Source of the DNA: a virus
Reading direction: 5' to 3' (one strand)
Virus record (IMG/VR): IMGVR_UViG_3300023184_002552
Location: 1 to 22,060 of that record
DNA: 22,060 nucleotides
The stretch's first letter is position 1; each line of letters begins with the position of its first letter. The notes under the pieces are model-generated. The model saw nothing but the letters and a program-made list of their open reading frames with translations. It had not been told where the DNA came from and made no database searches. Made by a program: the position numbers and the translations under genes. Below are positions 1,991-22,060 of the stretch, piece by piece.

Positions 1991-2688
1991 AGGCCCGCCT
2001 CCCGTAATATGCTCTTTACCCATTCTGTATCTGCCACATAATCTTGGAATTTCCTTTGCCAATAATCTGGATCTATCCAAGGAAGTATTATTCCAATCTG
2101 TTCTTCATTTAGTTGATCAAGGAAATCAACACCGCTGGCACAGTTATAGACAATCCAAGGACTAACCCTGCCATTAGCGATATGATGGCAAATGCGATTA
2201 GCATTACCAAACCTAAAGTAATCACTAAATCCGTTTTTAAATTCTCCCAATTCATCTGCATAGTCCTGCATCTCCTTTAGGGCACGTTCAAGTGCATCTT
2301 GAACTGCTTCTTTACGCATATAACCTTTAAGATATTCTAAATATACTTTTTCATGCGTCCAATGATCTAATTTTTTGTTTTCCTTGATCACATAGTCTAT
2401 AAACATGCGAGGATTAACAGCACGTATACCTACCATATGACGACCAAATTTTACAAATGCACGATAGTAAGGACTCTTGACAAAATCCTCATATGATTTC
2501 ATCTTAGCCGATCCCTGTGTGAGTTCATAAAAGCGTAGGTATGCCTGGAGTCCAAATTGGACTCCTGTTTCTTTTTCCTGTTGCCAGCGACGTTTTTCTT
2601 CGCAGAGATGCGCCGCAAGAGTTGATTCCTTGCGGAACTCTTTGTCACAATATCTGCACTTATAGCTCGGCTTTAATTGACTTGTCAT
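1987..2688 (-). CDS. Zinc-finger phage protein, unknown function
   Basis: 233 residues if started at MTSQLKPSYK (2688); an in-frame start 15 codons earlier is possible but would overlap more of the preceding gene. The N-terminus holds a treble or C2HC-type zinc site, C11-x2-C14 with H27 and C29, in the string YKCRYCDKEFRKESTLAAHL. The rest is mostly helical and charged, with no membrane segment and no catalytic motif that I recognise. The combination resembles a conserved hypothetical protein of marine T4-like phages. It lies between the gp62-like clamp loader and the mini-polymerase, so a DNA-linked job is plausible but unproven. Confidence 0.7.
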   Translation of the reverse strand: MTSQLKPSYKCRYCDKEFRKESTLAAHLCEEKRRWQQEKETGVQFGLQAYLRFYELTQGSAKMKSYEDFVKSPYYRAFVKFGRHMVGIRAVNPRMFIDYVIKENKKLDHWTHEKVYLEYLKGYMRKEAVQDALERALKEMQDYADELGEFKNGFSDYFRFGNANRICHHIANGRVSPWIVYNCASGVDFLDQLNEEQIGIILPWIDPDYWQRKFQDYVADTEWVKSILREAGL

Positions 2689-3121
2689 CAAATCCGAGGT
2701 TTCGTGCCATGTCTGCAATATCTCGTTTATCATTGATTTTCGCTAATAGATCTATTTCATCTGCTTTCATTGCGGGATACAATTTAGCCAAGAACTTTTG
2801 GCTCTTGTTATCACCTTCTTTCTTTTTGGCATTTAGCCAATAATGGAATTGCCCTCCCATGCCTGGACTTACTGTAGTGCAGGTCAACCATTGTAGTTTG
2901 GTATGCTTGTTAATATCAAAAAAGTTTTTATTCACACGCTCATTGGTAGCCATCAGATAATAGGCCTGCATATCTGCACTGCCACTAACATTGGCTCCAT
3001 ATTTTAGCATGAGATACGTGCTGAATTTTTTACGATCTTCGTCAGTAAAGTTATCATAATAATCGCGATCCTTGCGATCAAATGCCGCCATTTCATACTT
3101 GATTTCTAAACTGCTACTCAC
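2660..3121 (-). CDS. Clamp-loader small subunit, gp62-like (tentative)
   Basis: 153 residues from a GTG at 3121 that overlaps the previous stop (GTGA) with GGAG six bases upstream; an ATG at 3091 is an alternative. The C-terminal half follows T4 gp62 in spacing: GMGGQFHYWLNAKKKEG against gp62 GLSDEAHFNYLMAAVPRGKR, then KFLAKLYPAMKADEIDLLAK against IKLLAKRYQVNTNDAI. In T4, gp62 joins gp44 to load the gp45 sliding clamp on DNA. The resemblance is weak and eye-judged; similar proteins in uncultured T4-like phages are, as I recall, labelled clamp loader of DNA polymerase. No gp44 or gp45 is in this window. Position in an operon with UvsW and a polymerase-like protein supports a replication role. 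Confidence 0.55.
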   Translation of the reverse strand: MSSSLEIKYEMAAFDRKDRDYYDNFTDEDRKKFSTYLMLKYGANVSGSADMQAYYLMATNERVNKNFFDINKHTKLQWLTCTTVSPGMGGQFHYWLNAKKKEGDNKSQKFLAKLYPAMKADEIDLLAKINDKRDIADMARNLGFDDKSIKAEL

Positions 3122-3366
3122 TTCTTGCTCCACCCTTTGCTGAGATAGTTAAGTATCCGTTCTATACTTGACTGCATGGTTTGATATTTGCTCTGTAGGC
3201 TTTCAATTTGATCTTGTTGTCGTTCTACTAAGCGCAATAGTCTATCTACGGCCGCTGTCTGTTCACGTAATTTTTTATCTTGGCTAAGCAAATTTGGTCG
3301 AGGTGGTGCATTCGGGTCTACCGCTCGTTTCTTTTTCTGCTTGAATTGATTTGGGTTAAATGCCAT
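3118..3366 (-). CDS. Small basic coiled-coil protein, unknown function
   Basis: 82 residues. The N-terminus is basic and Pro-rich (NQFKQKKKRAVDPNAPPRP), and residues about 30-75 read as one coiled coil (AAVDRLLRLVERQQDQIESL and onward to the SSIERILNYL segment). The start overlaps the preceding gene by 11 bases, with AGAGGA upstream. No family was recognised. A basic tail plus a coiled coil would suit a nucleic-acid-binding adaptor, but that is only a guess from composition and location. Confidence 0.65.
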   Translation of the reverse strand: MAFNPNQFKQKKKRAVDPNAPPRPNLLSQDKKLREQTAAVDRLLRLVERQQDQIESLQSKYQTMQSSIERILNYLSKGWSKK

Positions 3367-3613
3367 CTTTATAGTCCTCTGAGAGCTTATATATAATTAT
3401 ACATTTTTCTACAGCTTCTGTCAATGCTGGATTCAAATTCCTTTTTGGATATATTTCATTCCACATGCGTTGATTAATCCGTTCTTTAGCGTTCAGATTC
3501 TGACCAATCATTACTCGTTCACTGTCGGGCGCACCAGCTTCTCGAGCGTAGATTGTATCTCCCCCGTCTGGGCTTTCGTATACGTAAGTTGCGCCCGGTT
3601 TTAACTTACCCAT
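3356..3613 (-). CDS. Conserved small phage protein, unknown function
   Basis: 85 residues, soluble. The N-terminal half looks like a short beta domain (GATYVYESPDGGDTIYAREA), and the C-terminal half is helical (NPALTEAVEKCIIIYKLSED). The ATG directly follows the stop of the small membrane protein gene. The shape fits a recurring hypothetical protein in T4-like phages of aquatic bacteria, but I cannot attach a function. Confidence 0.65.
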   Translation of the reverse strand: MGKLKPGATYVYESPDGGDTIYAREAGAPDSERVMIGQNLNAKERINQRMWNEIYPKRNLNPALTEAVEKCIIIYKLSEDYKDGI

Positions 3614-3778
3614 TTACCAATGCCTGATGACACCTGCTATGATAAACAGGTTAGTGACAATATAAAATAGGACTATCAAAGTTCGTATCAAGGCAATACG
3701 ATCTGCTTCGTCGTCTGTGCGGCCTTCTTTTTGTCCCAGGGCTTTAGCCCAAATACGCCAAATTTTATTCTTTACCAT
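3614..3778 (-). CDS. Small single-pass membrane protein
   Basis: 54 residues, starting MVKNKIWRIWAKALGQKEGR. One clear membrane helix covers about residues 31-51 (LIRTLIVLFYIVTNLFIIAG), preceded by a charged cytosolic-type segment with a DDEAD acidic patch and followed by a short tail IRHW. The start lies seven bases inside the previous gene and the stop is followed at once by the next ATG, so it is part of the operon and not spacer DNA. Similar tiny membrane proteins occur in T4-like phages of aquatic bacteria; the function is unknown. Confidence 0.7.
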   Translation of the reverse strand: MVKNKIWRIWAKALGQKEGRTDDEADRIALIRTLIVLFYIVTNLFIIAGVIRHW

Positions 3779-4272
3779 ATCTTTCCGTAGTCTACGACTT
3801 CGCTTTGTCGTGATATATCTTTAACAAAATAAGCACATAGTGGATGCTGACCTTCTGTAATAGGCACTGCTAACATCTGACCTGGACGCAGTTTTGGAAA
3901 ATACCATTTGACGTCTTGGTAGATATCTACGATCTCAATTGGATGGAATTCTGGTTTAAAGCTGTCCAACGGATTAAAGGTAAACACACTAAACCCACGA
4001 TCATTAATCGATGTTAACGGTATAACTTCTAAGTCACCGAAATCAGGTTCGCCGATCAACACCTGCCAGTCTACAGGCATCTTAACTAAGTTGCCGCCGA
4101 TATTTAATACCAATGCTGGACTATTAAATGATTCTAAAAATATCAATGGAATAAAGAAGTAGTCGGGATTCTTTGGATCGCTGTTGTCTAATATAGCGAA
4201 ACGCAGATCCTCAACTTCATCCGGAATCTCATTCATTTCATAGGCTTGGTTTTCTAATGTTAGTATATACAT
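3772..4272 (-). CDS. Conserved phage protein next to uvsW, unknown function
   Basis: 166 residues, beginning MYILTLENQAYEMNEIPDEV. The most conserved-looking stretches are DWQVLIGEPDFGDLEVIPLT (residues about 68-87), FSVFTFNPLDSFKPEFHPIE and a C-terminal VKDISRQSEVVDYGKIW. It looks like a compact beta-rich protein without membrane segments or a known catalytic signature. Proteins of this pattern sit beside uvsW in aquatic T4-like phages, as I recall, without a known role. The gap to uvsW is only three bases, so the two are surely co-transcribed. Confidence 0.65.
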   Translation of the reverse strand: MYILTLENQAYEMNEIPDEVEDLRFAILDNSDPKNPDYFFIPLIFLESFNSPALVLNIGGNLVKMPVDWQVLIGEPDFGDLEVIPLTSINDRGFSVFTFNPLDSFKPEFHPIEIVDIYQDVKWYFPKLRPGQMLAVPITEGQHPLCAYFVKDISRQSEVVDYGKIW

Positions 4273-4275
4273 ATC

Positions 4276-5733
4276 TTATTGCCAATCTGCCTTTTCAACG
4301 ACAAATGGGTAGTTCGCCTCCTTGTAAAATTGCTTTCTTTTTGTTAAGTGCCGTTTGGCAAACTTACATGTTGATGTTATGTCCCAGATTTGGACGAAAT
4401 CTTTGTCCTCAGCTTTTCTAATGCCTCGCCCAATTGACTGAATAACTCGAACAAATGATTTACCAGGCTCAACGAGAACAAGATTAAAAATACGAGGAAT
4501 GTTAATGCCAACAGCGGCAACACCATAAGTAGCGACAATAACTTTGTCATCCATTGTCGCAACGTCGTCATATTGTTCTTTTCTATCATCTGCTTTGGTT
4601 CCTCCTGAAACGAATACTGAATCTTTGATACGGTCTACCAGGGCTTTTCCTGGTGCCAGTCGATCAACTAATACCAAGGTATTACCTGTTTTACGAATCG
4701 TTTCTACCAGCTGTGCGATATAGTCTAAACGTCCGTCTGTTTCTAGCAAGTATCTGAGCTCGCTTTGATAATCTCGATATTCTACATGGTCAACAAGTTG
4801 TAGAACATTTACATGACAGTTTGCTAATACACCCTGCTCTTGTAATTCACTGGCACTTAGACGGCCAATAACGTCTCCTATTGAACACTTTAGGCTCATA
4901 AATTCGTAATCTTCTTTAGGTATTGTGCCAGTTAATCCCCAGCGAATAGGTATATGTGCCATTACCCCAGTTAGCAGTGTTTTAAGCGCATCTGCTTTGG
5001 CCATATGCACTTCATCAACCATAACGCAGACCACGTCCTGTAAAAACTCACCAATGGTAATGTCTACTTCGTGATTACGACTACCTTTTAATAGAATGTT
5101 TAGACTTTGCCAAGTGCAGATAGTATGTGTGCGACCAAACTCTTTACGATCTCCAAAGTAAACTCCAACGTCCAATCCCATGTTGATATAGTCTGCTTCT
5201 GTTTGTGTTACTAATGATTTGTTTGGAACGATAACGATAGTGCGCCCATGTGGCTCACAGCTATAACTTAGTGCAGCCGTGATCAAGGTTTTACCTGCGC
5301 CTGTAGCAACTTCTTGTAGGCATTGTGGATTGGCTAAGAACTTGTTGATAATTTCAATTTGATAGTCACGTAGAACAATTGGCTGTCCTGCCATTGGGTG
5401 TTTAGCAGGCCAGTTAATGTGACTGAATGTATTTTCGTTTACCTGCGCAAACTCATACTGTGTTTTATATTCACGGAAGTCTTCTACTTCTATGCTGTAA
5501 CCTTGACCATCTAAGTAGGTAATGATCTCAGGTAGTAAGTTGATATAAGTGCTACCACCTAGTTGGAAGAAAGCTACCTTACCGTCCCATCGACCCAACC
5601 GAACTGCTGGTAGGTAACGAGCGCCTGGGATTTCATATTTGAACTTATTGCTAAGTTCTTTGCGTTCATGCAAATCAAGGCCTTCTATCTTTACATTAAC
5701 TTCATCTTTGATCAGTAATCTGGCTACAGCCAT
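4276..5733 (-). CDS. uvsW: UvsW-type SF2 DNA helicase
   Basis: 485 residues, close to T4 UvsW (about 500). UvsW unwinds branched DNA, regresses forks, removes R-loops and drives the switch to recombination-dependent replication. The helicase motifs are in order: Q/I region with VATGAGKT (Walker A, 142-149), VMVDEVH (motif II, about 237-243), LTGT (motif III, 267-270), ATYGVAAVGINIP (motif V, 401-413) and QSIGRGIRK (motif VI, 432-440). The N-terminal 110 residues match the small DNA-binding domain of the family (GARYLPAVRLGRWDGKVAFF). The start shares one base (TAATG) with the HARP-like gene before it, so translation is likely coupled. Confidence 0.93.
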   Translation of the reverse strand: MAVARLLIKDEVNVKIEGLDLHERKELSNKFKYEIPGARYLPAVRLGRWDGKVAFFQLGGSTYINLLPEIITYLDGQGYSIEVEDFREYKTQYEFAQVNENTFSHINWPAKHPMAGQPIVLRDYQIEIINKFLANPQCLQEVATGAGKTLITAALSYSCEPHGRTIVIVPNKSLVTQTEADYINMGLDVGVYFGDRKEFGRTHTICTWQSLNILLKGSRNHEVDITIGEFLQDVVCVMVDEVHMAKADALKTLLTGVMAHIPIRWGLTGTIPKEDYEFMSLKCSIGDVIGRLSASELQEQGVLANCHVNVLQLVDHVEYRDYQSELRYLLETDGRLDYIAQLVETIRKTGNTLVLVDRLAPGKALVDRIKDSVFVSGGTKADDRKEQYDDVATMDDKVIVATYGVAAVGINIPRIFNLVLVEPGKSFVRVIQSIGRGIRKAEDKDFVQIWDITSTCKFAKRHLTKRKQFYKEANYPFVVEKADWQ

Positions 5734-9840: not shown

Positions 9841-10932
9841 TTAGCTTAGTAGGTGTTTTTTGAACCACTCTTTTGGATGGGGATTTTCTAGGCCAAACTC
9901 GATATTATAGCATTTCATAGGTACATGGGTAGCGACTATAAATGCAGTGTCACGGGCTTGATAGTTTAGTTGTTTATCGTAATTTGGACTATGGGTAACT
10001 AGGCCTAAACGATTCTGCCAGAATAGGGGAATATCTTCTTCTACCCAACGGTAATCTGTGCCGGTAGGTTTACTATTATATAACCATTCCGCAGCTGGGT
10101 TGAAGTTAGTCCAGCTATCATCACGCTCATAGAATCCAATAGCGATCTTGATATCATTCTCAAAGAAGCCTGGTGGGATATATAGTGGTGGAACGATATT
10201 TTCCAAGGTCTGAGCCATATTGTCATTCACATGACTGTAACCTTCATAGTGACGGACTATTTCTTTAGTTGGTGCATAGACTGGTCCAGGACATACGTAT
10301 CCGTGATGTGCGCCAAGATAGTCAACCTTGAACATCAGGGCATCGCCATAATCACGTTCCCAATACTGTTTCAAGCGACCAGCTTTGAGCATCATGATGC
10401 CATCATAGGTTTCCCAGTCATAACGAATAAAGTCACCATCAGCAGTCAACTCACCATTATAGTGTTTGCTCATACGCATCTGTTCTGGCCAATGGCTGTA
10501 ATATACGACAGCATTAGGACTAGGATCTAAAGTCAGATGGTTAATGGCACTTTCTACTATATCAAGATTAGTGTCGATAAAGATATGATCATCATTACAG
10601 GCTAACCATACGATCTCATCAGGATCATCTAAGTATTGGTCACACACCTGACGCCAATCACGACCAAAGTCACAGCGTTTCCATATGACGATTAGTTTGT
10701 CCGCAGGATATAAAGAGCGTAGATAGTCGTCTAGTTCAGCTTGTCTATGAGCCAGCTCGGGAGCCAACGTAATGCAAAATATAAACTGGCTGACCAGTGG
10801 CTCTAGCACAGCAGTGCTGGCTAGGCAGTAGCGGAACACATCGAAGCGTTCCGGATTAGGCATCCATCCGGCTCTGCGGTATGGATAGCCCATGCGGACA
10901 TCGGTAATCTTAACGTTGAATAATACTTTCAT
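9841..10932 (-). CDS. Glycosyltransferase-like protein
   Basis: 363 residues without membrane segments. The first 130 residues look like a GT-A-type nucleotide-sugar domain: a VLFNVKIT strand at the start, DKLIVIWKRCDFGRDW at about 79-94, and VWLACNDDHIFID at 108-120, where NDDH could be the metal-binding DxD-type site. The remainder (SHWPEQMRMSKHYNGEL, then a CPGPVYAP segment) is unfamiliar. It closes the first glycan block and is coupled to the aldolase-like gene by TAATG. The GT call rests on the DDH pattern and its neighbours; acceptor and donor cannot be told. Confidence 0.6.
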   Translation of the reverse strand: MKVLFNVKITDVRMGYPYRRAGWMPNPERFDVFRYCLASTAVLEPLVSQFIFCITLAPELAHRQAELDDYLRSLYPADKLIVIWKRCDFGRDWRQVCDQYLDDPDEIVWLACNDDHIFIDTNLDIVESAINHLTLDPSPNAVVYYSHWPEQMRMSKHYNGELTADGDFIRYDWETYDGIMMLKAGRLKQYWERDYGDALMFKVDYLGAHHGYVCPGPVYAPTKEIVRHYEGYSHVNDNMAQTLENIVPPLYIPPGFFENDIKIAIGFYERDDSWTNFNPAAEWLYNSKPTGTDYRWVEEDIPLFWQNRLGLVTHSPNYDKQLNYQARDTAFIVATHVPMKCYNIEFGLENPHPKEWFKKHLLS

Positions 10933-11918
10933 TAGAACTGTAGGTTGGTGGTATATTGATTAAACACATACCATAGGGCAGTTTGTATTTCTTCTTCCCA
11001 ATTGGTGTGCTGACTAAGTGCAGATAATATCGCACGGTATTCTGGTGTATTGAAACAGTAGTGACCTGCTACGATGACTTTCTGTTCATCTTGATCACTG
11101 TCTGTCCATTTACGCCAACGACCGCTGGCTAATACTACTCGACTAAAGTTATTCCATAATGCGTCACCTGCACGCTGTAGGCAAAGTTCTTTTAGTAGTT
11201 TAGTCTGTATGACACCAAGCTGTGGAGCGATGTTCATAGCATGCACACCTGCCGCACGACGTAGACGTATTTGATCAGCTGACAAATAATCAGCATTATG
11301 TTCTTTTAGTTTAACACCGTTGTCATTAGCGACTTTAACTAAATCTCTGACAGTGTCAATTTCAAATGTACCTGCTTGATGATCTTCATGGCATAGGCTA
11401 CCTGTTTGTGCTACAACAAATTCTAAGTTAGGCATGTTCTTAGCAAATGCTACATCTTCACGATACTTGATAGCACCCGCGGCTACACCTACATTTTCTT
11501 CTGTGCCAAATTCAAAACGGATGTTGGGGTTCAGATCTATACAGAACTTAAACAATTCTTCTGCGATGCCATAGGTATCATCAACACGGCTGGTATCAAT
11601 GTGTATTAGATCAAAGCCTTGTTCAATATCGTAGGCAATGGTTTTCTTAGTTGCTTCTACTGCGTCTTTAAGACTAAGACCTTTTTCCGTGTCAAGGAAG
11701 TAAGGACCGCAATGGTCACGACACATCCAAATGTAATCAGTTGGTAATGTGTCTAATAACTTACGCAGTTCTGGTGTGGTCATTACATAACCTGATTCTG
11801 CATCTACTTGATTACGGCTTGCGATAATCATTAGTGGACGTTTTGTATCATGTGTGTATGTGCAAATCGCTTTAATTGCTTCCGGACTCATTGGTCCAAA
11901 TCCTAATCTAAAATCCAT
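10932..11918 (-). CDS. GatZ/KbaZ-like TIM-barrel protein
   Basis: 328 residues. The order of motifs resembles the GatZ/KbaZ subunit family of class II tagatose-bisphosphate aldolases: RPLMIIASRNQVDAESGYV (27-45) against KbaZ PLLIEATSNQVDQFGGYTG, YIWMCRDHCGPYFLD (62-76) against ILGGDHLGPN, and FDLIHIDTSR (102-111) against FKKIHLDCS. A later FEFGTEENVG (135-144) would be another barrel strand. This family chaperones or supports aldolases, and some members may be catalytic. Placed next to a KdsC-like phosphatase and a nucleotidyltransferase, it may form or cleave a sugar phosphate. Function in this pathway is inference. Confidence 0.65.
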   Translation of the reverse strand: MDFRLGFGPMSPEAIKAICTYTHDTKRPLMIIASRNQVDAESGYVMTTPELRKLLDTLPTDYIWMCRDHCGPYFLDTEKGLSLKDAVEATKKTIAYDIEQGFDLIHIDTSRVDDTYGIAEELFKFCIDLNPNIRFEFGTEENVGVAAGAIKYREDVAFAKNMPNLEFVVAQTGSLCHEDHQAGTFEIDTVRDLVKVANDNGVKLKEHNADYLSADQIRLRRAAGVHAMNIAPQLGVIQTKLLKELCLQRAGDALWNNFSRVVLASGRWRKWTDSDQDEQKVIVAGHYCFNTPEYRAILSALSQHTNWEEEIQTALWYVFNQYTTNLQF

Positions 11919-12378
11919 GTTCTATTCCCATTTTATCCATAATATACACGCAGGCGTCCATTACAGCACCTTTACCACCTTCGCGTGGTGTTACATACGA
12001 GGCCTTGCTAATCGCAGTTCTCCATGCTTGTGCTGGGGCTATACTCAATCCCACGTGAGGGAAGATTTTCGCATCGTAAGGTCCGTCACCCATGAATACT
12101 GTTTCGTTGGGATCACCTTTTGATAATACCCAATCCAGTCTGTCTGCTTCTTTTACCATCGTAACAGGAAACTTCATATGAGTTGTGATACGATTGTAGG
12201 TGATAGGCCAGCCATTTTCATCAGCACTAACAAACTCTATTTCAACGTGCTTACGTAGGAGTTTTAGTCCGTCGTGATCGTAGTTACCAAAGGCCTTGAA
12301 TGGTTTCCCATCATGACCCCAATAGAGCATGCCATCATTTAGTACCCCATCTACATCCATGATAAATCGTTTATACAT
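11908..12378 (-). CDS. KdsC-like HAD sugar-phosphate phosphatase
   Basis: 156 residues, within the KdsC size range (about 170-190). HAD motif I is FIMDVDGVLNDG (D8, D10), motif II has Ser in FVSADE (S51), motif III is probably K87 or near it, and motif IV is GDGPYD (D98, D102). The C-terminal PREGGKGAVMDA matches the KdsC GG-x-GA-V signature. KdsC removes phosphate from KDO 8-phosphate; relatives do the same for nonulosonates and other sugars. It overlaps the aldolase-like gene by 11 bases and follows the kinase/nucleotidyltransferase fusion, so it probably dephosphorylates an intermediate of the same sugar pathway. Confidence 0.85.
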   Translation of the reverse strand: MYKRFIMDVDGVLNDGMLYWGHDGKPFKAFGNYDHDGLKLLRKHVEIEFVSADENGWPITYNRITTHMKFPVTMVKEADRLDWVLSKGDPNETVFMGDGPYDAKIFPHVGLSIAPAQAWRTAISKASYVTPREGGKGAVMDACVYIMDKMGIEHGF

Positions 12379-13973
12379 TAGTTCAATACCTTGCTAAAGT
12401 GATATTGAGCAAGTGCTACTAAGAACTTGTCAAACGGTGCTTCATGTAATGGGCTCATGTTCAAGTAGATGATTGGCACTAAGGTTTTTACTTTACGCCA
12501 ATCAAGTCCTTTTGATTGGACCCAACGCTGTAGAATTTCTTCATATATTTGAACGTCTTTAACACTTGGTATTTCAAGTGTAACATAGTCATTACGTTCT
12601 TTATAGTTATAGTGTTCGTGTTTGATATCTTTATAGCTAAGATGTAGACCTCCTAACATCTTAGCCAAGTCATAGTATTGATCACCATATAATGCGCCAC
12701 CAAAATCAGTGCGCCAATCAATAGCAGTAAAACGATCTAAAGGTTTATCTGACAAGCTCATTACATCCAGACTGCCAATATATTGTGCTCGGTCATAGAT
12801 AGTATTATCAAAGTGTAGATCACCGTGGATAAACTTCCAGGAAGTTTCTGTGCATAACCAAGTAAAGTCAATCTTTTCCAAGTATTGATCAATGCTTAGG
12901 ACTTCTTTGCCATTGACCACACACGGCTCTGACCAATCAGCATATTTCACACGGAACTGTTCAACACGTTCCATGGTCTTTTTATAGTAGAAATTATGAC
13001 AGATGTTTAGATGATTGATATCACTGTTTTCTTCTGGCGGTGCGTCTTTCCACAGTGTGTTTTCACACCAGTTAAGCATCTTTTCAAACACTTCTGGTGT
13101 GTATTGATTGTAGACGATATCACCTTTGGCGAAGTCATGTATCAAGAACTGGCCAGAACGTTCTACATTTGTTGGCATAGCTTCTGGATTACATTCAGCA
13201 CGTTTCACACGCATTTCTGCCTGCTTAGGATCTGTCCAGAACTTGATGATCTTGCCGTTGTCATTGTAGAATAATTCGTTAGGTTTAGGGAAACTCACAT
13301 CTGTAAACTCACTTGATAGTTCTTCCCATTTTTCATAAGTGCCAAAGTCTTTCCACCCGCGGATAGTGTGTGCCTGTAGATCTAAGCCTTTAAATCCTTC
13401 ATAGGTTTCTTTAGCATGGCGGGCCTGTAGATTGTGTAGATATTCATCATCTTTAACATACATCATGCCTACGAATGCATCCACAGCAGTCTTGCTAGAT
13501 TTTTTATTATGAACTGAGATAATATCATTACCTTCACGTTCAATCCAGCAGTAGTCCTGTGCTATATCGCTGTCAACTGGGTGAACAGCGATCCAATTGT
13601 GATCAAGTTTATCTTCAAATTTGAAATCAAATAGGGTATCACAGGCTAACCACATGAATCCACCACGTATGTATTTGCTACACATCTGTATGCTGGTAGC
13701 GGGTCCTGTGTCACCTTCTGCATAGTTAGGAATATCAACAAATACCACGTCTTTGTCCTGATGGACAACACTGACATAGTCTTTGATCAACTGTCCCATG
13801 TGTCCACAGGCAATGACGAATCTGGTAGTGTCATCAAACTTTTCAATGATGTGGCTGATCAAAGGTTTATTATCGTAAGGGATTAGGGCCTTAGGCACCA
13901 TACGGCTAAATGGTCCCATGCGTCGACCATACCCTGCGGCTAAGATTAATACTGTGAGTTTAGTGTTGTTCAT
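12378..13973 (-). CDS. Nucleotidyltransferase-kinase fusion for sugar activation
   Basis: 531 residues in two domains. Residues 1-230 are a sugar-phosphate nucleotidyltransferase: LILAAGYGRRMGPFSRMVPK (9-28) is the glycosyl-nucleotide loop and WLACDT (108-113) holds a metal-binding Asp. Residues 235-531 are an aminoglycoside-phosphotransferase/choline-kinase type fold: FIHGDLHFDN (381-390) has the HGDxxxxN catalytic loop, and TAIDWRTDFGG (416-426) supplies the metal-binding Asp. A single enzyme could thus phosphorylate a sugar (or other alcohol) and then activate it to an NDP form. This arrangement resembles the HddA/HddC-type heptose or LicA/LicC-type logic, but substrates are unknown. It overlaps the cupin gene by 14 bases and is coupled to the phosphatase by TAATG. 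Confidence 0.85.
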   Translation of the reverse strand: MNNTKLTVLILAAGYGRRMGPFSRMVPKALIPYDNKPLISHIIEKFDDTTRFVIACGHMGQLIKDYVSVVHQDKDVVFVDIPNYAEGDTGPATSIQMCSKYIRGGFMWLACDTLFDFKFEDKLDHNWIAVHPVDSDIAQDYCWIEREGNDIISVHNKKSSKTAVDAFVGMMYVKDDEYLHNLQARHAKETYEGFKGLDLQAHTIRGWKDFGTYEKWEELSSEFTDVSFPKPNELFYNDNGKIIKFWTDPKQAEMRVKRAECNPEAMPTNVERSGQFLIHDFAKGDIVYNQYTPEVFEKMLNWCENTLWKDAPPEENSDINHLNICHNFYYKKTMERVEQFRVKYADWSEPCVVNGKEVLSIDQYLEKIDFTWLCTETSWKFIHGDLHFDNTIYDRAQYIGSLDVMSLSDKPLDRFTAIDWRTDFGGALYGDQYYDLAKMLGGLHLSYKDIKHEHYNYKERNDYVTLEIPSVKDVQIYEEILQRWVQSKGLDWRKVKTLVPIIYLNMSPLHEAPFDKFLVALAQYHFSKVLN

Positions 13974-14436
13974 GTTCTGCCGCTATCCTTCCGTGTCCTC
14001 TATTTGCTGAATCTTCAAGGCGTATCACGTCATCTAATTGAGTAGTGCTTGCTTCTGTGTAATGTAAATCATCATACGCGACCATACGGTGTATAGTGCA
14101 GGGTGGTGTGTGGAATACAGCGCCTGGTGCTAATTCTTGTGTGATTAATTCACTTTTAATCTTGTCGATTTCTTCTGGTGAGTATCCACCTGCTAAGAAA
14201 CGTTCGCAATCAAAAGGCTCAGGATGATAAATCAACGCACCATTGCCAACATGTAAATGGATACTTTCTGATTTAAATTGGTGAACTTGTAGGCTGGTTA
14301 CGAACCCAGCTTTGAGTATAAGTTCTTTTAGAGCAAAAGGGTAAACATCAGATCCTGGCATTAGCCAAGTTTCTGTTCCCCAAGGTTTATGAACTACGTG
14401 GCAGTTCTCGATTCGATGGAATTCTACAGTCATCAT
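13960..14436 (-). CDS. Cupin of the phosphomannose isomerase type II group
   Basis: 158 residues (157 if the second of two adjacent ATGs is used; AGGGG lies three or six bases upstream). The cupin core reads HKPWGTETWLMPG (16-28), ALKELILKAGFVTSLQVHQF (35-54), then SES and HLHVGNGALIYHP (60-72), and a second motif PPCTIHRMVA (111-120). Type II mannose-6-phosphate isomerases share the PWG start and the LQ-H block. The metal-binding second His (HxH) is Phe here (H52-Q-F54), while E57 and H116 remain. It may isomerise a sugar phosphate for the next enzyme or act as a sugar-binding partner. Confidence 0.75.
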   Translation of the reverse strand: MMTVEFHRIENCHVVHKPWGTETWLMPGSDVYPFALKELILKAGFVTSLQVHQFKSESIHLHVGNGALIYHPEPFDCERFLAGGYSPEEIDKIKSELITQELAPGAVFHTPPCTIHRMVAYDDLHYTEASTTQLDDVIRLEDSANRGHGRIAAEHEQH

Positions 14437-20415: not shown

Positions 20416-21444
20416 TTAGCAACGCAACCAACGTTCGTTAGCCAGCGTCCAATTTACAACTTCACCAATACGTTCTGTTAGGCTAACACGAGGTTCCCAA
20501 CCTAAACTGCGCATGTAGTCACCGCTTAGAGCATAACGTAGGTCATGTCCTGGGCGTGAGCTATGGAAGTCCACCATTTCGTACTTCAATTCTTTTCCTT
20601 GCGCATCAGCGATAATCTGTGCTAATTGTAGATTATTGATTTCTTCTTTGCCCACCAAATTAAACTTAGGACATTTAGCGCCACCGTAGTCTTCTGCTAA
20701 TGTAGTATGATCTAATCCAAGTAAGAAATGCATAGCATCTGCTACGTCAGCCGCATGGATGTAATAGCGACTACCTGGAATAGTTCTTGTAGCATCACTG
20801 TGGATAGTGATAGTGTCGCCATCATTTACCTTGCGGATACACATTGGAATGTATTTCTCTGGATGCTGTCTTTGTCCAAAAATGTTCATGGTGTGTGTAA
20901 TATAGATAGGCATCTTGTAGGTATTTTCAAACGCTACAGCAAGTTCTTCGCCGCCAGCTTTGGTCGCTGAATACGGATTTGAACTGTTATAACGATCACG
21001 CTCACCGTAGTTAATACCATTTGGTGCTGGGCCAAATACTTCATCTGTTGAGAAGTAGATGAAACGTTCTAAATTTGGCAGTTGACGAGCATACTCTAAG
21101 ATATGTCCTGTGCCAACTACGTTATCCCAAACAAACTCCATTGGGAACTCAATACTGCGATCAACGTGTGATCCTGCGGCCAAGTGTAGAACATAATTAA
21201 CATCACCAATGTCTCGCTTGACCATTGGGTTAAGTTCTGCTTTGAGATCATGGAATACTACCTTGACTCGCTTTTTATTTTCAGCGTCAAACTCATTCAT
21301 CATGTCTGATAAACGATTTAAGTTGCCACTAAAGTCTAGGCGGTCAAGACTGACGATATTCCAGTCTGTGTTTTTTAATAAATGATGAATAACGTGATGT
21401 GCTACAAAGCCTGCACCACCAGTCACCAGGACGGTTTTTGACAT
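20416..21444 (-). CDS. dTDP-glucose 4,6-dehydratase-like enzyme (RmlB family)
   Basis: 342 residues, full length. TVLVTGGAGFVAHHVIHHLL (4-23) binds NAD. FIYFSTDEVFGPA (128-140) holds the RmlB-type T133-D134-E135 catalytic set with S132, and NPYSATKAGGE (156-166) the Y158-x3-K162 pair. Further family marks are THTMNIFGQRQHPEKYIP and SSRPGHDLRYAL (295-306). RmlB turns dTDP-glucose into dTDP-4-keto-6-deoxyglucose. The TDE triad supports the dehydratase rather than a simple epimerase, though GDP- or UDP-sugar substrates are possible. No glucose-1-phosphate thymidylyltransferase is adjacent, so the substrate may come from the host. TGGAG lies eight bases before the ATG. Confidence 0.88.
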   Translation of the reverse strand: MSKTVLVTGGAGFVAHHVIHHLLKNTDWNIVSLDRLDFSGNLNRLSDMMNEFDAENKKRVKVVFHDLKAELNPMVKRDIGDVNYVLHLAAGSHVDRSIEFPMEFVWDNVVGTGHILEYARQLPNLERFIYFSTDEVFGPAPNGINYGERDRYNSSNPYSATKAGGEELAVAFENTYKMPIYITHTMNIFGQRQHPEKYIPMCIRKVNDGDTITIHSDATRTIPGSRYYIHAADVADAMHFLLGLDHTTLAEDYGGAKCPKFNLVGKEEINNLQLAQIIADAQGKELKYEMVDFHSSRPGHDLRYALSGDYMRSLGWEPRVSLTERIGEVVNWTLANERWLRC

Positions 21445-21512: not shown

Positions 21513-21686
21513 TTATGCTTCTTGGCGATCTGCTACTGTGCGTGCTACTTTGGTTTCGACGTATTCTTTGATAAAACGTATAGCTTTACGGCTACTATCA
21601 AATACATACTCACTGGTTTCATCTTCCTGTGTTAGGATCACTACAAATCCATTGGTTACCTTACGAATTTCAATTGAATCAAACAT
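21513..21686 (-). CDS. Small soluble protein, unknown function
   Basis: 57 residues, starting MFDSIEIRKVTNGFVVILTQ. It looks like a beta hairpin then a helix (DSSRKAIRFIKEYVETKVAR) of the type seen in many small conserved phage proteins. AAGGAA lies nine bases before the ATG, and a near-consensus promoter (P5) stands upstream, so it is probably expressed early and strongly. It precedes the second glycan block by 68 bases. Function unknown. Confidence 0.7.
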   Translation of the reverse strand: MFDSIEIRKVTNGFVVILTQEDETSEYVFDSSRKAIRFIKEYVETKVARTVADRQEA

Positions 21687-21732: not shown

Positions 21733-21761
21733 ATAGTAACATCATTAGAAACACATGTCAA
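21733..21761 (-). promoter_or_regulatory. Sigma70-type promoter of the 57-residue gene (P5)
   Basis: TTGACA (21761-21756), 17-base spacer, TACTAT (21738-21733), 47 bases before the ATG at 21686. The -35 box abuts the T-run of the terminator to its right. Confidence 0.8.
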
Positions 21762-21762
21762 G

Positions 21763-21788
21763 AAAAAAGGCTACCGAAATAGCCTTTT
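21763..21788 (-). terminator. UUCG-type terminator after the porin transcript
   Basis: A 9-base stem, AAAAGGCTA/TAGCCTTTT (21780-21788 and 21765-21773 on the minus strand), encloses TTTCGG, which can form a UUCG tetraloop, and is followed by T residues. The minus-strand T-run is six long, so it terminates the porin and hairpin transcript. Confidence 0.85.
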
Positions 21789-21793
21789 CGCTT

Positions 21794-21885
21794 GGTAGTT
21801 ATCCTACCGGAAGATCGAAGCCTTGGACGTCTCCAAGTTTCAGCTGTAACTCCAGCTTACCCAGTTGCACTTCCCCTAAAGGAAG
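21794..21885 (-). other. Train of four short hairpins after the porin gene
   Basis: Four stem-loops lie in about 92 bases between the porin stop and the terminator. Stems on the plus strand: GGTAG/CTACC (21794-21798, 21804-21808), CTTGGA/TCCAAG (21822-21827, 21832-21837), AGCTG/CAGCT (21842-21846, 21853-21857) and CTTCC/GGAAG (21870-21874, 21881-21885). Loops are 4-6 bases, spacing roughly 20-28. The loop and linker sequences differ, so it is not a repeat array. It could be a structured small RNA or a protected 3' end. No open frame of useful length was found here. Confidence 0.45.
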
Positions 21886-21927
21886 GAGAGCGTGTGGCCG
21901 ATACTGTTTTTAGCTTACTATCCGTTC

Positions 21928-22060
21928 TTAGAAGAATAAGATAGCACCTGCTGAGTATGTATCGCTCTTATTAGACGCACCTGAGTGTGCTTCTGACTCT
22001 ACGCGATTGTATTCAGCTACTAAGTTTAAATGCTTAGTTAGTGGGTGGTATGCACCAACA
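21928..22060 (-). CDS. Outer-membrane porin, C-terminal part
   Basis: The last 43 codons of a gene that begins beyond the right edge. The protein reads VGAYHPLTKHLNLVAEYNRV, then an Ala/Ser/Asn-rich loop, and ends SDTYSAGAILFF. Alternating hydrophobic residues and a terminal Phe are the beta signal recognised by the BAM machinery, and the LTK.LNLVAEYNRV...TYSAGAILFF layout is that of gamma- and betaproteobacterial porins (Porin_4-like). A porin in a phage-type window is unusual: it could be a phage-borne gene that alters the host surface. The rest of the protein, including the start and signal peptide, must be read in the adjoining sequence. Confidence 0.75.
   Translation of the reverse strand, partial: VGAYHPLTKHLNLVAEYNRVESEAHSGASNKSDTYSAGAILFF

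Follow-up and report, generated by a model that had tools for sequence, protein, structure and literature searches.

Host-type general porins behind late-type promoters in T4-like phages with probable Methylophilaceae hosts

Results

The window, the whole stretch of DNA analyzed here, is an entire IMG/VR record of 22,060 bases, and at its right edge lies the 3′ end of a host-type general porin gene on the minus strand (21928..22059; 43 codons and a stop), truncated by the contig end. The frame runs from 22059 to 21931 with a TAA stop at 21930-21928 and translates as VGAYHPLTKHLNLVAEYNRVESEAHSGASNKSDTYSAGAILFF, a 43-residue fragment with the C-terminus AGAILFF; the coordinates given in a first-pass annotation (21928-22060) were correct to within one base. 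Between the porin stop and the terminator is a GC-richer stretch of about 130 nt (21795..21927, minus strand) that has no counterpart in relatives, where the gap is about 30 nt. This stretch gave nothing credible against Rfam, had a fold z of −1.27, and included a 24-nt piece for which viral contigs held no exact copy. The terminator-like element itself, the hairpin AAAAGGCTAtttcggTAGCCTTTTTT with a T tract (21763..21788, minus strand), which a simple scan did not list, recurs downstream of the small barrel gene of L002, L003 and, with one base different, L006. Next come a σ70-like promoter, TTGACA-17-TACTAT (21733..21761, minus strand), and the gene that it precedes, a conserved phage gene of 57 aa (21513..21686, minus strand) that forms the right border of the exchange slot described below. 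An NAD-dependent nucleotide-sugar epimerase/dehydratase gene (20416..21444, minus strand), 72-74% identical to genes of T4-like cyanophages and marine viruses, opens a glycan locus, which at 10932-14436 (minus strand) includes genes for a nucleotidyltransferase, a phosphatase-like protein and a GatZ/KbaZ-like aldolase family protein. Elsewhere the window carries a UvsW-type helicase gene, a T4-like marker (4276..5733, minus strand), as well as a DNA polymerase piece, an AAA protein and a cell-wall hydrolase.

Because the 43-residue tail as a lone query gave no significant match in Pfam or the PDB (nor did it among phage records), the neighboring 57-aa gene was chosen as bait for relatives, which recovered 40 loci in viral contigs. 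Four of these contigs carried, just before the 57-aa gene, a matching peptide at the end of a frame of 387-402 aa, and the window's peptide was 86-98% identical to the ends of the 387-aa ORFs. Furthermore, a 43-kb contig, L043, terminates within the porin gene and shares 126 identical nt with the right end of the window; joining the two completes a porin of 387 aa with 93% identity to its L016 counterpart, so that the full gene could be read from adjoining sequence as first proposed. We infer that the 126-nt overlap resembles an assembly-graph overlap. Beyond it, L043 has 11 extra nt (L043:7158-7168) that look like a fold-back assembly artefact because they are the reverse complement of nearby porin sequence, and L043 and the window likely come from one phage population. 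The original call of a porin on 43 residues was right in identity, as borne out by the Porin_4 relatives described below and by the L043 completion, but it claimed more than so short a query can show.

The accompanying placement of the porin in a T4-like phage genome was supported by Gp23 and UvsW on porin contigs. Two porin-bearing contigs, 178 kb and 100 kb long, encode the Gp23 major capsid protein (E 5e-99 and 6e-98), and porin-bearing relatives encode UvsW proteins 81-86% identical to that of the window, which is itself closest to those of the large phages Phosso (55%) and Atu_ph07 (52%). Among the porin contigs, Gp23 and UvsW are accompanied by TATAAATA late promoters and a late sigma factor gene; Gp23 was not found on the shorter contigs L016, L012 and L043, which as fragments are uninformative on this point. 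A chimeric window edge, or contamination with host DNA, might be suspected from the fact that the window terminates inside a gene and that the adjoining 130 nt are unique. This is extremely improbable, since the gene order is identical in four independent contigs and L043 overlaps the window, and since the porins have a phage-type leader and signal peptide and share contigs of up to 178 kb with phage markers. For the relatives, such an origin is already refuted, and for the window the recurrence of the junction between the porin and the 57-aa gene in four other contigs, together with the L043 overlap, upholds the continuity of the edge on which the first-pass annotation depended.

Full-length phage porins scored far above the curated cut-off of 27 bits for Pfam Porin_4 (L016, 92.1; L027, 91.6; L033, 76.2 bits), with E-values of 7.5e-26 (L016) and 1e-25 for two full-length relatives. 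Porin_4 was their only Pfam match, the Porin_O_P profile leaving them unmatched, and they had no match in PHROG. An AlphaFold2 model of the L016 porin, made with 42 sequences (pLDDT 80, pTM 0.79), is a 16-strand barrel with a long inward L3 constriction loop. Its nearest solved structure is DcaP (Z 29.0, rmsd 3.2 over 320 residues), with PorB (Z 27.1) and Omp32 (Z 26.2) also near. The phage proteins begin with an MKK..ANA signal peptide and have a C-terminal aromatic residue, ending in FF directly before the stop. The profile match, 16 strands, L3, signal peptide and terminal aromatic residue identify the product as a predicted Gram-negative general porin of the Porin_4 family.

The closest bacterial porins, which the first-pass annotation had proposed as a guide to the host, belong to the Methylophilaceae. 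In a porin-alignment scan of 84,980 genomes, which is biased to close relatives because conserved peptide patterns were required, the best 80 loci almost all carried the label of this family, the rest being labelled only at a higher rank, and the top bacterial matches were 57-64% identical over the full length. Other envelope genes of these phages pointed the same way: the identity of phage PstS to a Methylopumilus gene reached 83%, and that of phage OprP to its Methylotenera and Methylophilus counterparts was 69-70%. Judging from this gene capture, Methylophilaceae are likely the hosts. A maximum-likelihood tree of 88 porins placed the 14 distinct phage porins in three places, one of the phage rows (L062) being a long branch, and the starred branches of the tree force at least three changes, indicating at least three host-to-phage captures. 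Each of the three types has contigs in which it follows ahcY (L042/L046, L050/L061 and L062).

The Porin_4 porins of the Methylophilaceae (OM43 strains LSUCC0717, KB13 and HTCC2181; Methylopumilus; Methylotenera) are 57-64% identical over the full length to the phage clade nearest the window and have the same barrel and nearly the same constriction loop. The phage copies differ in their signal peptide and late promoters, in L4 and L5 loops that are shorter than in several OM43 porins, and in a surface that evolves more slowly. Signal peptides were 29% identical between phage and OM43 proteins, compared to 67% among OM43 proteins, and L4 and L5 were short relative to several OM43 porins in the clade nearest the window. 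Between phage and host no loop was better conserved than L3 (0.72-0.86, a level equal to that of the host-host comparison), and dN/dS within phage porin clades (0.06-0.20) indicated purifying selection. The external loops for the most part diverged no more between phage and host than between hosts. At equal barrel divergence they differed less among phages than among hosts (0.16 versus 0.45, and 0.38 versus 0.56), in a comparison of non-independent pairs with few, related phage sequences, and at larger barrel divergence phages and hosts were alike. Diversifying evolution of the phage surface loops was also considered, and none was seen at matched barrel divergence; the slow divergence of these loops offers no hint of an arms race, although it is compatible with one.

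All 14 distinct phage porins had the motif TATAAATA, CTAAATA or ATAAATA at 62-81 nt upstream of the start, whereas TATAAATA occurred within 180 nt of only two of 75 host porins, at other positions. In a relative of 177 kb, TATAAATA is rare, and nine of its 11 sites precede ORFs, where 0.5 would be expected (P 2e-11); these ORFs include virion-type genes and the porin. A late sigma factor gene (phrog_12791, E 7.6e-57) lies on the same contig. These data point to a predicted T4-type late promoter for the phage porins. The motif was absent from the gp23 stretch examined in the 177-kb relative, indicating that it need not mark every late gene. By inspection of the phage porin leaders, the motif often lies inside a TTGAC(N)-17-TACACT promoter, suggesting both early and late transcription of many phage porins; the leader type of the window phage (type A) has the late motif only. 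A Pho box, TTGTAAC-N4-CTGTAAT, was found at eight of nine phage pstS/oprP loci (0/300 shuffles each), and upstream of the phage porins tested there was no convincing instance. Pho control of the porin was therefore rejected, as the porins have late promoters without a convincing Pho box and the clear boxes stand before phage pstS/oprP.

Comparison of the relatives revealed that the interval between ahcY and the 57-aa gene is an exchange slot, which holds a porin, a 196-aa barrel or AhpC, or is empty; a fuller version contains a porin, PstS, Porin_O_P and an LpxH-like phosphoesterase. The 196-aa barrel has 10 strands in its predicted structure (pLDDT 81) and is unrelated to the porin. In some relatives a 188-aa barrel or a thioredoxin reductase also stands just before the 57-aa gene. 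Genes for an AhpC-like peroxiredoxin or a thioredoxin reductase were observed next to the 57-aa gene at L015:9254-9817, L024 and L037:8303-9898. The 95-nt leaders of the L042 porin and the L003 small barrel are identical, while the genes themselves are 70% identical over the first 60 nt and 20% in the mature part; conversely, the mature parts of the L054 and L051 porins share 90% identity behind unrelated leaders (25%). Leaders and barrels therefore recombine. L043 has the leader type of L042. The leaders of L042, L046, L054 and L002-L011, which precede porin and small-barrel genes, contain a sequence approximating GTGGC-N5-GCAACA twice, about 30 nt apart, possibly an RNA or operator element.

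The barrels in the proposed exchange comprise general porins captured at least three times and the 10-strand barrel, sometimes accompanied by OprP and PstS. We tentatively suggest, holding this at somewhat below an even chance, that a large lytic phage lineage swaps outer-membrane barrels behind a conserved late promoter and leader and phage-type signal peptides, such that the virus population chooses the envelope proteins of the infected cell.

The fuller version of the slot raises the alternative that the porin is an auxiliary metabolic gene, one component of a phage-borne phosphate uptake module, since PstS, a Porin_O_P channel and an LpxH-like phosphoesterase come after the porin in several relatives. 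We consider this unlikely. The protein belongs to Porin_4 rather than Porin_O_P, and in L018 the downstream Porin_O_P gene is a separate one; four porin contigs have neither pstS nor oprP between the porin and the 57-aa gene; and the window, with 242 nt from the porin stop to the 57-aa gene, lacks both. The Pho box lies upstream of pstS/oprP and not convincingly upstream of the porins, and the late control of the porin without a Pho box, unlike that of the adjacent pstS/oprP elsewhere, argues against a dedicated role in phosphate uptake. Phage PstS and/or Porin_O_P genes with a Pho box, beside an LpxH-like phosphoesterase, were observed at L018:6441-8861 and in L029, L030, L047, L049 and L061, and loci of the L018 type are predicted to be phage phosphate-uptake modules with an outer-membrane channel.

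Discussion

Read from sequence, the gene is a porin located in phage genomes, captured at least three times, placed in a slot after ahcY and equipped with a late-type promoter and a distinct signal peptide, and it shows purifying selection and a conserved constriction loop. We favor the explanation, to which we give close to an even chance, that the phage deploys its own replacement for the host porin late in infection and so maintains a functional channel across the infected cell's outer membrane. Under this model, the phage's own late sigma factor would transcribe the porin, which the host Sec and BAM machinery would export, so that new porin trimers would enter the outer membrane late in infection and stand in for the host porin, whose renewal would have ceased. 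The envelope would thereby stay permeable to small nutrients up to lysis, and insertion of the porin may also alter the cell surface. Two observations bear against a substitute porin: a purely late gene (leader type A) would aid nutrition only in the last part of infection, and a pore is not always what the slot supplies, because elsewhere it holds a 10-strand barrel (perhaps not a channel), AhpC or nothing.

Phage-borne porins are already known. Lambdoid phages encode host-like porins of the trimeric type (PA-2 Lc, NmpC type), and lambdoid porins such as that of PA-2 have been reported to block phage receptors. The lambdoid carriers, to which the present phages are likened by description only, are temperate phages of enterobacteria, in contrast to the T4-like phages of methylotrophs found here with their late promoter and exchange slot. 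By analogy, the late porin may displace or dilute a host porin that serves as receptor for the phage itself or for its competitors, either blocking superinfection or keeping progeny off dying cells and debris. We regard such receptor replacement as a serious rival, though a somewhat doubtful one, and its main support is the alternation of the porin with other surface barrels. Structurally unrelated outer-membrane barrels use the slot behind an identical 95-nt leader, suggesting that surface location, and not a channel, is the common denominator of the slot. In addition, the porin adjoins the glycan locus, L4 and L5 are shortened relative to several OM43 porins in the clade nearest the window, and late timing would fit protection of progeny. 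However, the surface-loop difference between phage and host does not exceed that between hosts, and these loops have changed less quickly in phages than in hosts. Receptor replacement and a substitute porin are compatible, and on the evidence of a captured porin, a late switch and an outer-membrane exchange spot these phages probably rework the surface and permeability of the cell before bursting it.

Lytic T4-like phages are usually assumed not to interfere with the host's outer membrane. The repeated capture of a host porin, set behind late-type promoters, by phages whose hosts are abundant methylotrophs of aquatic habitats implies that the composition of the infected-cell envelope can be virally controlled. 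It also offers a concrete, testable case in which receptor masking and the supply of nutrients could be told apart, and a marker by which the hosts of uncultured phages may be recognized.

What is new here is that T4-like methylophages have captured porins repeatedly, have them under late control and possess an exchange slot. A tblastn search of 50,697 phage records with the full-length porin gave no match, and a Porin_O_P query against the same records gave one weak match only. In BFVD, two proteins of uncultured Caudovirales annotated as OmpC (A0A6J5L4P1 and A0A6J5LP82) are porin-like barrels with about 15% sequence identity (Foldseek E 9e-18 for A0A6J5L4P1). The small barrel of cyanophages, PF24653 (Phage_OMP), occurs in T4-like phages and is not a 16-strand porin; the 188-aa barrel of L007 matched it weakly, below the cut-off. 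Our survey of the literature on phage-encoded porins, conducted largely outside subscription journals, found no description of this system. The Lake Baikal phages VP_139 and VP_266 are T4-like, have predicted Methylophilaceae hosts and carry an S-adenosylhomocysteine-processing auxiliary gene, but the main text describing them mentions no porin, outer-membrane protein or exchange slot (PMC7678222). Porins are likewise unmentioned in a paper on marine OM43 phages (PMC10580990), and in the OM43 host NB0046 a phosphate-selective porin gene lies close to pst genes (PMC5120137).

Finally, genes for a fatty-acid desaturase, a radical-SAM protein and a TauD-type dioxygenase were observed near ahcY (L043:1363-2199 and 2199-3806; L030:1464-2333 and 4319-5416), and the presence of desaturases close to ahcY suggests a broader remodelling of the envelope.
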